From an uncultured Erysipelotrichaceae bacterium (lineage in GTDB: Bacteria; Bacillota_I; Bacilli_A; RF39; UBA660): DNA of 62,223 nucleotides. Both the position numbers and the translations under genes were made by a program. The DNA lies in NCBI GenBank assembly GCA_902789425.1, contig CADANX010000003.1, forward strand, positions 1 through 62,223, read 5' to 3'. Below the pieces are notes generated by a model. It saw only the letters and a list, made by a program, of their open reading frames with translations, ran no database searches and had not been told where the DNA came from. This document shows positions 29,687 through 38,639 of the stretch, in pieces. Positions within the stretch are counted from its first letter, which is position 1. Each line of letters begins with the position of its first letter.

Positions 29687-29774
29687 TTTTTAGATATGTG
29701 CTATATAATTAATATAAATACAATCTATATATAATATGCGTAATATTTATAAAGATTGAGAAAGGAGTTTGTTT

Positions 29775-30647
29775 ATGGCTGAGAATAACAAAAAGAATAA
29801 TGATGAAATATTAAAAGATGATAACATACCGGCAATAGTAGGTTTTCTTTTTTCATTTTTAGGTCCACTTGCATTTATTGGTTTTATTCTTTCTATTGTT
29901 GGTTTATTTGATGTTAAACAATGTAAAACAAGTAGAAAAAACCTTGCAGTTGCAGGAATCATTATTTCGTGTTTTGTCTTATTAATTTTAACAATTGCTA
30001 TTGCATCATCCAATACTTCACCAGAAGAAACAGCAAGAGAACAAACAAAAACAGAAAAGACTGAACCAGAAAAAATAAAAGTTGTTGATTTTAGTACTAT
30101 GACAATGGGAGAAGCAGAAAAATGGTGTTCAGATAATGATTTGGTTTGCAATTTTACTACTGATTATTCTGATACTGTAGAAAAGGATAAGTTTATTAGT
30201 CAAAGTGTTGAAAAAGATGAGGAAGTTGAAGAATTTGAAAAAATTGAAATTGTTTATTCATTAGGACATAAAAAAACAGAAGCAGAAATAGAGGCAGAAT
30301 TTAAGGCATCATGTTCAACTTTAGATTATAGAGAAGTTCTTCGAAATCCATCAGATTATGCTAACAGACATGTTTATTGGTTTGGAAAGGTAAGTCAGGT
30401 AATAAGTAGTAGTTATGCTAAAAGATATATGATTTATGTTAATTGTCATGAAAATCAATACGCAAGTGGTGGATATATATGTGATGATGCAATGTATGTA
30501 ACTTATTCTGGCCCACTTAATTTGATTGAAGATGATGTAATAGAAATGTGGGGTTCTATGGCTAGTGAAGCTTATACATATACGACAGTTTTAGGTTCAT
30601 CTAAAACTGTACCTGAATTTGAAGCTTCATATGTAACAATTCATTAA
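29775..30647 (+). CDS. DUF4190-type membrane protein with PASTA-like domain
   Basis: A 290-residue protein. Two hydrophobic hairpin segments (about residues 18-45 and 58-80) with VGFLFSFLGPLAFIGFILSI match DUF4190 membrane domains. A PASTA-like unit follows (MTMGEAEKWCSDNDLVCNF to EKIEIVYSLG, about 110-165), then an OB-like beta domain with Cys residues (CSTLDYREVLRNPSDYANRHVYWFGKV). The C-terminal part is predicted extracellular. ATG 29775 has AAAGGAG 7 nt upstream. A paralogue of the membrane part follows at 30676. Confidence 0.75.
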   Translation: MAENNKKNNDEILKDDNIPAIVGFLFSFLGPLAFIGFILSIVGLFDVKQCKTSRKNLAVAGIIISCFVLLILTIAIASSNTSPEETAREQTKTEKTEPEKIKVVDFSTMTMGEAEKWCSDNDLVCNFTTDYSDTVEKDKFISQSVEKDEEVEEFEKIEIVYSLGHKKTEAEIEAEFKASCSTLDYREVLRNPSDYANRHVYWFGKVSQVISSSYAKRYMIYVNCHENQYASGGYICDDAMYVTYSGPLNLIEDDVIEMWGSMASEAYTYTTVLGSSKTVPEFEASYVTIH

Positions 30648-30675
30648 TATGTAATTATGAAAGGAATTAATAATT

Positions 30676-31434
30676 ATGGAAAAAAATAATTTAGATATAA
30701 ATAATAATGTACAATTAAAAGAAAAGAATACACCAGCATTACTTGGATTTATTTTTTCTTTTTTAGGTCCTTTATCTTTAATTGGATTGATATTATCAAT
30801 TATAGGTGTAGCAAATGCTAATAAGTATGAAAAACAAAGAAAAGGTTTGGCAATCGCAGGTATAGTTATTTCAAGTCTTATGTTAATTACTTTGTTTTCA
30901 AATCCTGATTTTACTAATAGTATTACTGAAGACGATAATTCTTCTACATTAGTTTCAACTACTAATAATTCTACTGAAGAAGAAAATTCATCAAGTAGAT
31001 CAACAACTAAAAAGAATGAAGAAAAAATATACAATATTGGAGATACAGTAAAATATAAAAAATTTGAAATAACAATTGAAAATGTTAGTACAAGAGATAT
31101 TGTTGGTGATGAATATTTTAATTCAACACCTGCCGAAGGCGGTATCTATGTTTGTGTAGATTTTAAATATAAGAATATAACAGAAAAACCAATTGGAATG
31201 TTTTCGTTTCCAAGTATTCGTTTAGTAGATTCAAAAGGAACAAGATATTCTACAGATATTAGTGCATCATCATACTATGCAACTGAAATGGATCCTGATA
31301 GAAAAATAGTTAGCGACTTAAATCCTGGAATTACAGTTAAAGATAATGATGTATATGAAATATCATCTGAATCATACAATAATGGTGAGTGGTATTTAGT
31401 TATTGATAATAAAGTTAAGTATAAGATTAAATAG
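30676..31434 (+). CDS. DUF4190/DUF4352-type membrane-anchored protein
   Basis: A 252-residue protein. Residues 17-75 repeat the DUF4190-type membrane hairpin of the preceding gene (LLGFIFSFLGPLSLIGLILS). A Ser/Thr/Glu linker is followed by an Ig-like DUF4352 (telokin-like) domain from about 120 to 252: KKFEITIENVSTRD, GIYVCVDFKYKNITEKPI and the final YLVIDNKVKYKIK. Such proteins are usually surface-exposed and of unknown function. It is coupled to the preceding gene and ends two bases before the RNA leader of the RhuM-Fic gene. Confidence 0.75.
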   Translation: MEKNNLDINNNVQLKEKNTPALLGFIFSFLGPLSLIGLILSIIGVANANKYEKQRKGLAIAGIVISSLMLITLFSNPDFTNSITEDDNSSTLVSTTNNSTEEENSSSRSTTKKNEEKIYNIGDTVKYKKFEITIENVSTRDIVGDEYFNSTPAEGGIYVCVDFKYKNITEKPIGMFSFPSIRLVDSKGTRYSTDISASSYYATEMDPDRKIVSDLNPGITVKDNDVYEISSESYNNGEWYLVIDNKVKYKIK

Positions 31435-31435
31435 A

Positions 31436-31567
31436 CATTAACACGTTGCCTAAAGTTAATGAGACAATTTGTGACGATAGAGTTTATTTTATTAAGGCAA
31501 TAAATAAAATAAACATGATGCGGAGAATACTTCCTTTTGGAAAGAAGAGAGGTATTCTCTTTTTTTT
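31436..31567 (+). ncRNA. Structured RNA leader with kissing loops and terminator
   Basis: Hairpin 1 pairs CATTAAC (31436-31442) with GTTAATG (31455-31461). Hairpin 2 pairs GTTTATTTTATT (31482-31493) with AATAAAATAAAC (31503-31514), 12 perfect pairs. Loop 1 carries TTGCCT (31446-31451) and loop 2 carries its exact complement AGGCAA (31495-31500), so a six-pair kissing interaction is possible. A terminator follows: GAGAATAC (31523-31530) with GTATTCTC (31552-31559) and T8. It sits between a membrane-protein stop and the RhuM-Fic start, so it may be an attenuator or small RNA. I do not recognise a known family. Confidence 0.55.
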
Positions 31568-31597
31568 ATGAAAAAATTTTTAAGAAGGAGAAAAAAT

Positions 31598-32539
31598 ATG
31601 AAAAACGAAATTATTTTGTTTGAAAATCAAGAAGTTAAATTAGAAGTAAATATGAAAGATGAAACTGTGTGGTTATCACAACAACAAATGGCACAATTAT
31701 TTGGTAAGGATAGAAAAACTATAACTAGACATATTCAAAATATTTATAAAGATGGAGAACTTGAAGAAAAACAAGTATGCTCATTTTTTGAGCATACTGC
31801 AAGAGATGAAAAAAAATATAATATTCAGTTTTACAATCTTGATATGGTTATAAGTGTTGGGTATAGAGTCAAATCAAAAAATGGTATTATTTTTAGAAAA
31901 TGGGCTAATAAAGTTTTGAAAGATTATATGATAAAAGGATACGTAATTAATCAAAAGAGACTAGATTATTTAGAAAAAACAGTAAAGTTAATTGATATTG
32001 CAGGAAGAATAAATCATGACATTAGTGGTTCTGAAGCAAAAGAAATAATTAAAGTAATTAATAATTATTCTAATGCTTTAAAATTACTTGATGATTATGA
32101 TCACAGAAGATTAGTAAGACCAAAAGGAACTAAGAGTAGTAATAAAATTACCTATGATGATTGTATGAATATTATTGGTGATCTAAAATTCAATACTGAA
32201 AGTAAAATATTTGCATTAGAAAGAAATGAAGGATTAAAAGAAATCATAGGCGCTATATATCAGACTTTTGGAGGAGAAGAATTATATCCTACAGTTGAAG
32301 AAAAGGCTGCTAATTTTCTATACTTGATAATTAAAAATCATACTTTTATTGATGGTAATAAAAGAATTGCAGCAACATTATTTATATATTTTCTTGAATT
32401 CTATAATATTCTTTATAGAGATTATGAACAAATAATTGATAATAATACTTTAGTTGCAATAACTTTATTAATAGCGCAATCTAATCCAAAAGAAAAAAAT
32501 ATACTGATCGATTTAATTATGAATTTTTTTAATAGATAG
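31598..32539 (+). CDS. RhuM family protein with Fic/DOC domain
   Basis: A 313-residue protein. The N-terminal RhuM part (WLSQQQMAQLFGKDRKTITRHIQNI, given here in outline, and YNLDMVISVGYRVKSKNG) resembles a DNA-binding or antirepressor domain. The C-terminal part carries a Fic motif HTFIDGNKR starting at H248, the AMP- or NMP-transfer loop. No inhibitory helix gene is adjacent. ATG 31598 follows AAGGAG by 7 nt. The gene is typical of genomic islands, and a structured RNA leader precedes it. A toxin or phage-defence role is plausible but unproven. Confidence 0.85.
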   Translation: MKNEIILFENQEVKLEVNMKDETVWLSQQQMAQLFGKDRKTITRHIQNIYKDGELEEKQVCSFFEHTARDEKKYNIQFYNLDMVISVGYRVKSKNGIIFRKWANKVLKDYMIKGYVINQKRLDYLEKTVKLIDIAGRINHDISGSEAKEIIKVINNYSNALKLLDDYDHRRLVRPKGTKSSNKITYDDCMNIIGDLKFNTESKIFALERNEGLKEIIGAIYQTFGGEELYPTVEEKAANFLYLIIKNHTFIDGNKRIAATLFIYFLEFYNILYRDYEQIIDNNTLVAITLLIAQSNPKEKNILIDLIMNFFNR

Positions 32540-37654: not shown

Positions 37655-37686
37655 AATAATATAGTTAACTATATTATTTTTTTTGT
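37653..37686 (+). terminator. Terminator of whiA
   Basis: AAAATAATATAGTT is followed directly by its complement AACTATATTATTTT and more T residues, a perfect 14-bp palindrome. Confidence 0.88.
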
Positions 37687-37709
37687 GGTATAATTATATT
37701 GGTGATACT

Positions 37710-38639
37710 ATGGAAATGAATAAAAAGGAATTTGTAACTATTGATGACCAAATTAAAATACTTCGAAATAAAGGTTTGGTAATTAATAATGAAAGTATTG
37801 CAAAAGATGTACTTCTAAGAGAAAACTATTTCTTTATTAATGGTTATAGAACACCTTTTTATACTAAGAATAAAAAGTTTAGTAAAGGAACAACTTTTGA
37901 AGAATTATATTCTTTATTCTTATTTGATAGAGATTTAAGAAATACTTTATTTAAAAACTTATTAATTGTTGAGAATAACATAAAAAGTATAATAAGTTAT
38001 ACTATGTCTAAAAAATATGGTTATAGGGAAAAAGATTACTTAAAAGTATCTAATTTTACTCCAGATATTAAAGAGCAAAGAAGAGTAAATGATGTAATTG
38101 ATAAAATGAAAAGACAAATTAGAGTTAATGGTTCAAAACATACAGCAACACTTCATTATATTAATAATTATGGCTATATTCCAATGTGGATTTTAGTTAA
38201 AGTTTTATCTTTTGGTATTATAAATGAATTATATGGAATATTAAAAAATGATGATAAAAAAGAAATATGTGATGTTTATGGTGTTACAATAGATGAAATG
38301 GAAATATATTTATCAATTTTATCAAATTATAGAAATCTATGTGCTCATGAGGATATTGTTTACGAACATAGAACTCAAAAAGAAATACCTGATACAATTT
38401 ATCACAATAAATTAAAAATAAATAAAGTAGATGGATTATATAAATATGGTAAGAATGATATATTTGCATTAATAATAATTTTAAAAATAATGCTTACAAA
38501 AAATAGATTTAATGATATGATGTTTGAAATAAATGAGGAAATAAAAAAATTATATTTTAATTTAAAATCAATACCACATCAGAAAATATATGAAATATTA
38601 GGTTTTCCAATTAATTATAATGATATAACAAATATTTAG
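37710..38639 (+). CDS. Abi family (Abi_2) HEPN-like protein
   Basis: A 309-residue protein of the AbiD/AbiF type known from lactococcal phage abortive infection. Landmarks are IDDQIKILRNKGLVI at the start, ENYFFINGYRTPF, LFDRDLRN, and R208-N-x-x-x-H213 (RNLCAH), the HEPN RNase motif. HEPN proteins of this family are thought to cut RNA after phage sensing. It has its own extended -10 promoter (TGTGGTATAAT) after the whiA terminator, and ends 12 nt before htrA. It looks like a single-gene insert in a housekeeping region. Confidence 0.85.
   Translation: MEMNKKEFVTIDDQIKILRNKGLVINNESIAKDVLLRENYFFINGYRTPFYTKNKKFSKGTTFEELYSLFLFDRDLRNTLFKNLLIVENNIKSIISYTMSKKYGYREKDYLKVSNFTPDIKEQRRVNDVIDKMKRQIRVNGSKHTATLHYINNYGYIPMWILVKVLSFGIINELYGILKNDDKKEICDVYGVTIDEMEIYLSILSNYRNLCAHEDIVYEHRTQKEIPDTIYHNKLKINKVDGLYKYGKNDIFALIIILKIMLTKNRFNDMMFEINEEIKKLYFNLKSIPHQKIYEILGFPINYNDITNI

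Follow-up and report, generated by a model that had tools for sequence, protein, structure and literature searches.

The usual view of a structured RNA that precedes a defence toxin is that of an antitoxin dedicated to a single protein. In C. difficile, the locus of RCd22 (abiF RNA) comprises a SigA promoter, a structured RNA of ~130 nt, a Rho-independent terminator and a promoterless toxin gene, and for RCd22-abiF both attenuation by the terminator and binding between RNA and protein have been shown (PMC12373285). Judged from a comparison of architectures, this locus is the nearest known arrangement to the unit presented here. The aba element of BstA seems to work at the level of DNA; it overlaps the start of the coding region and is tied to its cognate BstA only (PMC8585504). 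A set of structured RNAs from the human microbiome mentions ToxN-linked candidates (PMC8040213); ORF6N, KilA-N and RhuM are absent from the main text of that paper, and a prior unnamed listing in its supplementary tables is possible. Here, we describe one covariation-supported class of kissing-loop RNA with partners from seven or more protein families, found even within a ToxIN operon.

The window analysed, i.e. the whole stretch of 62,223 nt, belongs to contig CADANX010000003.1 (GCA_902789425.1) of an uncultured Erysipelotrichaceae bacterium; positions are given on its plus strand, on which all features of the RNA unit lie. The conserved core of the RNA occupies 31435–31525 (91 model positions, matched by covariance model R2 with 94.6 bits). 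It begins immediately 3' of the upstream stop codon, one nucleotide before the start at 31436 given in the first-pass annotation. The P1 hairpin (31436–31461) is formed by CATTAAC (31436–31442) and GTTAATG (31455–31461) and presents UUGCC in its loop. It is followed by the unpaired linker J12 (31463–31480), which column conservation marks as conserved (family consensus ACAAUUU...CG[A/C]UA[A/G]), by the P2 hairpin (31482–31514) with the loop AAGGCAATA presenting GGCAA, and by the conserved tail CATGATGCGG (31514–31523), the final Gs of which join the stem of an intrinsic terminator (31522–31567). In this terminator GAGAATAC (31523–31530) pairs with GTATTCTC (31552–31559) ahead of a T8 run. The features that had drawn attention to this site are all found in the sequence: two hairpins with exactly complementary six-base loops (TTGCCT, 31446–31451, kissing AGGCAA, 31495–31500), a perfect 12-bp stem in one of them (P2, 31482–31493 with 31503–31514), and the terminator followed by a Shine-Dalgarno sequence (about 31581–31590). 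The impression of more structure than expected by chance was also correct, since the 132-nt stretch reaches a minimum free energy of -33 kcal/mol versus -19.2 ± 2.7 kcal/mol for dinucleotide shuffles (z -5.0; none of 200 reached this stability). The RhuM-Fic gene behind it (31598–32539) encodes a RhuM N-terminus and a Fic/Doc domain with HTFIDGNKR (Pfam; PADLOC PDC-S23/S05). Its start is more likely ATG 31598 than the in-frame ATG 31568 because the latter abuts the T-run of the terminator and has no Shine-Dalgarno sequence.

The promoter of the window copy is atypical for the family. A weak promoter-like match at 31403–31432 (TTGATA 31403–31408, 18 nt spacer, TTAAAT 31427–31432) lies within the 3' end of the DUF4352 ORF that precedes the RNA, whereas promoter statistics show a good TATAAT for most relatives, placed 6 nt ahead of the RNA. 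P1 has C-G pairs at positions that are U-A or U-G in most relatives, and on the RNA tree the copy sits on a long branch (0.37); its stems are intact, with compensatory differences from those of the relatives. It may be transcribed from the weak promoter or by read-through, or it may be partly decayed because no strong promoter stands at the usual place and its branch is long. The region between uvrB and the RNA (29769–31434) contains two adjoining DUF4190 paralogues, one with PASTA and one with DUF4352, and the uvrB–uvrA gap of relatives holds other genes, among them a NUDIX-like ORF in G001. Elsewhere in the window (37683–38639) an Abi_2 (AbiF/AbiD-like) gene has a TATAAT-like box just 5' of it; abiF RNA was not detected there.

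A compensatory-change test on homologous loci had been proposed in the first-pass annotation, and its outcome is the opposite of the unchanged stems and loops named there as refuting: the two stems as well as the kissing loops covary strongly. In the alignment A8, comprising 83 distinct copies and 26 pairs, 94.6% of the cells in these pairs are standard pairs (35–54% in controls with slid pairings) and two-sided changes occur in 23 of the 26 pairs (6–13 in the slid controls). Over the 83 copies P1 is paired in 97.5% of cells with two-sided changes in 6/8 pairs, P2 in 91.5% with two-sided changes in 12/12, and the kissing helix in 96.5% with compensation in 5/6. Since the covariance models never contained the kissing helix, the alignment was not fitted to it. 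The loop–loop pairs can be read directly from individual copies, e.g. UUACC/GGUAA (L025), CUUGUC/GACAAG (L041), CUAGCC/GGCUAG (L118) and UCUAGC/GCUAGA (L089). Two RNA subtypes differ in their tails (UGCAUG[A/C]UGCGG and UAUCUAUUCGGG), and among the unpaired segments ACAAUUU, CG[A/C]UA and the UGCG tail show the highest conservation. Columns 58 and 103 of A8 covary, with linker CGA or CGC accompanying tail GAUGCGG or GCUGCGG; this A/C coupling suggests a tertiary contact or may be an effect of ancestry. A short leader ORF (AUGACAAUUUGG) was rejected as not conserved, its AUG being absent or followed by an early stop in several copies. The structure is real, and the small-RNA family of which it is a member has apparently not been described before.

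When 60 related genomes were searched at the DNA level, three copies turned up in a single congeneric genome and one in another. The genes behind these first homologues encode Bro-N (L021, L023, L024), a DUF1016/YhcG nuclease followed by RhuM-Fic (L022), and KilA-N (L025, L026). In L026 (2368–4191) an ORF6N gene is split after ~27 codons by the KilA-N gene inside it, and in L025 a related KilA-N gene sits before an apparent Bro-N remnant. Covariance model R1, built from five copies, detected 58 full-length copies when run on 291 genomes of the bacterial family of the window, 40 of which contain the RNA. The second model R2, run on 288 genomes of the order, had matches in 25, every one in that same family. 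Samples of other families in the class and phylum, searched with strict filters, gave no copy beyond one short match (50 nt in G417, a different family, E 0.007) that was judged spurious. Named records with the RNA are nearly all metagenome-assembled genomes titled Bacilli, Bacillales or Erysipelotrichaceae, many of them from sheep, goat, deer, cattle, reindeer or rabbit. The range seen so far in sequence collections is thus apparently one family of uncultured, mostly animal-gut bacteria. Rfam returned no consistent match at gathering or permissive thresholds, only weak ones at chance level (PyrR, freshwater-2 and others). Three pattern scans of viral contigs gave eight matches, none confirmed by the covariance model, and the phages and plasmids searched contained no copy. 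Pattern matches in Robiginitomaculum, Acidobacteria, an archaeon, Rubripirellula and other unrelated taxa all failed the covariance model as well.

Promoter, RNA and terminator form a unit in fixed register, with a gene following ~24 nt on. An intrinsic terminator separates RNA and gene in all 84 copies with enough sequence, and its 5' arm begins at one register in 74 of them; a -10 box matching at least five of six positions is present in 72 of 84 and lies 6 nt before the RNA in 59. The distance from the T-run to a start codon with Shine-Dalgarno sequence has a median of 24 nt (<40 nt in 57/81), and all assigned downstream genes are co-directional with the RNA. As this leaves no room for another promoter, the gene would depend on read-through in most copies. 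Typical components of an attenuator are therefore present: a conserved structured 5'UTR leader with covariation, and an intrinsic terminator as expression platform for a gene whose dependence on read-through follows from the lack of promoter room. An alternative antiterminator structure, common in attenuators and not obligatory (linchpin- or factor-controlled ones do without it), was not seen: pairing of the terminator 5' arm with its own upstream RNA (0.297) carried no signal compared with swapped partners (0.315). In the absence of a classical antiterminator a switch would need a linchpin, a protein or a polymerase contact.

On evidence that is comparative throughout, this RNA is probably a cis-acting attenuator: a portable 5'-leader that precedes toxin- or defence-like genes. 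The first-pass annotation had suggested an attenuator beside an antitoxin-like RNA and a phage-sensing element, and the attenuator has gained support from the terminators in fixed register in 84 of 84 copies, the lack of promoter room in most of them and an insertion into the 5'UTR of toxN described below. In the proposed mechanism RNA polymerase would make the kissing-loop RNA, in which P1 and P2 are joined by a 6-bp loop–loop helix next to the conserved linker and tail. By default the polymerase would presumably halt at the terminator fused 3' of the RNA, leaving the downstream gene with little expression. The folded core would recognise a signal, be it a metabolite, a protein or an altered RNA polymerase, that frees the polymerase and turns the gene on; one and the same module is coupled to many unrelated effectors.

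Genes were assigned to 81 copies, a few near-duplicate loci being counted twice. Forty encode ORF6N proteins, 17 RhuM-Fic, seven Bro-N, six YhcG and six KilA-N; one unknown protein occurs twice, and a PBECR3 nuclease, a ToxN and another unknown protein once each (Pfam). The partners belong to at least seven unrelated protein families, many of them toxin- or nuclease-like. The earlier description of the RNA as an element before a RhuM-Fic gene is correct for the window and does not hold as a specificity, since ORF6N, Bro-N, KilA-N, YhcG, ToxN and PBECR3 genes follow it too. The RhuM-Fic protein of the window matches PADLOC PDC-S23 and PDC-S05, which are phage-defence candidates and not proven systems, and the only solved chain it matched is a death-on-curing family protein. 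Several copies of the RNA are followed by decayed genes. For ORF6N the AlphaFold model is only fair (pLDDT 69), and weak Foldseek matches to proteins of the PLD fold (Zucchini, MITD1), in agreement with a C-terminal HDRFIIID motif, are at most a lead. Proteins without a known family, candidate new effectors, are encoded directly 3' of the RNA in L099 (1707–2456, no Pfam match), L101 (3598–4416) and L151 (past 5613).

The phylogeny of the RNA appears largely independent of the type of effector. The 17 RhuM-Fic rows of the RNA tree call for 16 label changes (15.6 when shuffled) and the six YhcG rows for six, and all labels together need 35 changes versus 37.9 when shuffled, a value as low being reached in 10 of 200 shuffles. 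This tree is built from few columns and many of its forks are open; its starred branches alone force at least 12 RhuM-Fic changes. The ORF6N label is partly clustered (17 changes versus 26.3 shuffled), which could reflect co-inheritance with the gene or specific binding. On the ORF6N tree the proteins with RNA form one large clade and scattered cases (at least four changes), and in a clade of 20 proteins the RNA is always present; many ORF6N genes in RNA-bearing genomes do without it. Two contigs of one metagenome-assembled genome (L118, L150) carry identical RNAs, one before RhuM-Fic and one before ORF6N. The KilA-N genes of G001 and G031, from two genera, are 85% identical from the Shine-Dalgarno sequence to just beyond the stop only, and their RNAs differ, so genes evidently move without their leader. 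Taken together the RNA can be considered an effector-agnostic module.

This independence bears on the best surviving alternative, that the terminated RNA accumulates as an antitoxin, which binds and blocks the downstream protein, the terminator setting the ratio of RNA to toxin. Such a role, also suggested in the first-pass annotation, would fit the architecture of RCd22-abiF (PMC12373285) and of type III loci, the frequency of toxin- or nuclease-like genes downstream and the constancy of the RNA in the ORF6N clade of 20 proteins, and a plain small RNA would agree with the absence of an antiterminator. We nevertheless regard it as unlikely, as the proteins encoded behind this one RNA class come from at least seven unrelated families, which its phylogeny largely ignores, identical RNAs precede two different effectors in the same genome, ORF6N genes often lack the RNA, and the window copy has no tandem repeats. 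A canonical ToxIN operon of G223 (L074 4420–4850, minus strand; L258) adds to this. There the RNA with its own terminator lies between the -10 box and the Shine-Dalgarno sequence of toxN, and upstream of it the operon has kept its 34-nt ToxI array intact, together with the terminator of that array and the -10 box of toxN; aligned relatives have no such insert. ToxI arrays were found at 24 of the 28 ToxN loci whose upstream sequence sufficed, and the RNA convincingly at only one of 30 (G223). A function as ToxN antitoxin was rejected after the intact array had been found: with this array present and the RNA so rare at ToxN loci, it is not needed in that role. In general, ToxI arrays (33–37 nt, 2–3 copies) precede most toxN genes in the family of the window (L259–L287), and for many toxN genes a TATAAT-like box in the stretch that follows the ToxI terminator suggests a second promoter, which would yield toxin mRNA without antitoxin.

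Next comes the possibility that the short terminated RNA acts in trans on other RNAs or a common host protein, the gene being reached by leaky read-through. Its own promoter and terminator, the strong conservation of the unpaired ACAAUUU and CG[A/C]UA and the presence of several similar copies in some genomes would suit this role, which we hold to be quite unlikely, because neither a constantly close co-directional gene nor the insertion into a 5'UTR is expected of a free small RNA. Still less probable is an element for constitutive processive antitermination or RNA polymerase binding (HK022 put-like or EAR-like) that fixes the level of read-through. The kissing-loop RNA presumably resembles put and EAR elements, being a two-hairpin RNA at the transcript start with fixed geometry to the terminator and no antiterminator, but an antitermination signal followed immediately by a conserved strong terminator would make little sense without regulation. 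A site with variable occupancy is the interval between TlyA and a ZIP transporter, which holds RNA-BroN-YhcG in G004, RNA-KilA-N and an apparent Bro-N remnant in G001, and nothing in G003. Together with the patchy distribution this site could point to a structural RNA of a mobile element that moves with its gene as a unit, a reading we find scarcely credible because RNA and genes move independently (genes without RNA, and RNA inserted in front of a toxN gene that is standard in other respects), no common 3' end was noticed and none of the viral, phage or plasmid searches gave a confirmed copy.

Beyond the attenuator itself, we tentatively raise a broader and rather doubtful idea: one class of RNA sensor may be a general portable alarm switch that connects one infection-linked signal to a repertoire of unrelated toxins. 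These would include Fic, PDDEXK, ToxN RNase, PBECR nuclease and DNA-binding effectors, and exchange of the effector gene behind the RNA would then create a new infection-triggered defence system. If the RNA is a switch, many phage-defence candidates of uncultured gut Bacilli, whose protective role is itself putative, would have a common input signal, and to identify this signal would be a step towards understanding how they are triggered.

Compared with transcription-attenuating riboswitches and protein-binding leaders, the RNA is alike in having a conserved structured core and conserved unpaired nucleotides fused directly to an intrinsic 5'UTR terminator; it differs from both in that an antiterminator was not detected, no known ligand can be assigned and the genes share no metabolic theme. 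What it has in common with aba is the position of a non-coding element where a KilA-N-like defence gene begins; here, in contrast with the overlapping, cognate aba, RNA covariation, a promoter and a terminator are present, and the element lies wholly upstream and is effector-agnostic. Type III RNAs (ToxI, antiQ, CptI, TenpI) show the same order of RNA, terminator (84/84 here) and toxin, tertiary pairing of loops and putative abortive-infection toxins downstream. They form H-type pseudoknots, however, instead of kissing hairpins, and their tandem repeats of ~34–37 nt do not occur in positions 31380–31620 of the window; the 34-nt array of L074 is a separate element upstream of the kissing-loop RNA, so that in L074/L258 the RNA coexists with a genuine ToxI array. 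Instead of ToxN, CptN or TenpN the window has RhuM-Fic, and ToxN stands behind only one of 81 copies; instead of cognate pairs of RNA and toxin, RhuM-Fic and YhcG distribute much like shuffled labels, with ORF6N partly clustered. With abiF RNA (RF03085) the unit shares the order promoter, RNA, terminator and toxin, without a covariance model match in gathering or permissive scans. The fold differs, with two kissing hairpins here against two repeated abiF motifs there, and many unrelated effectors, with no Abi_2 gene directly 3' among those classified, take the place of the one toxin. Because of this effector independence, RNA–protein binding is unlikely to be the general rule in the family described here.
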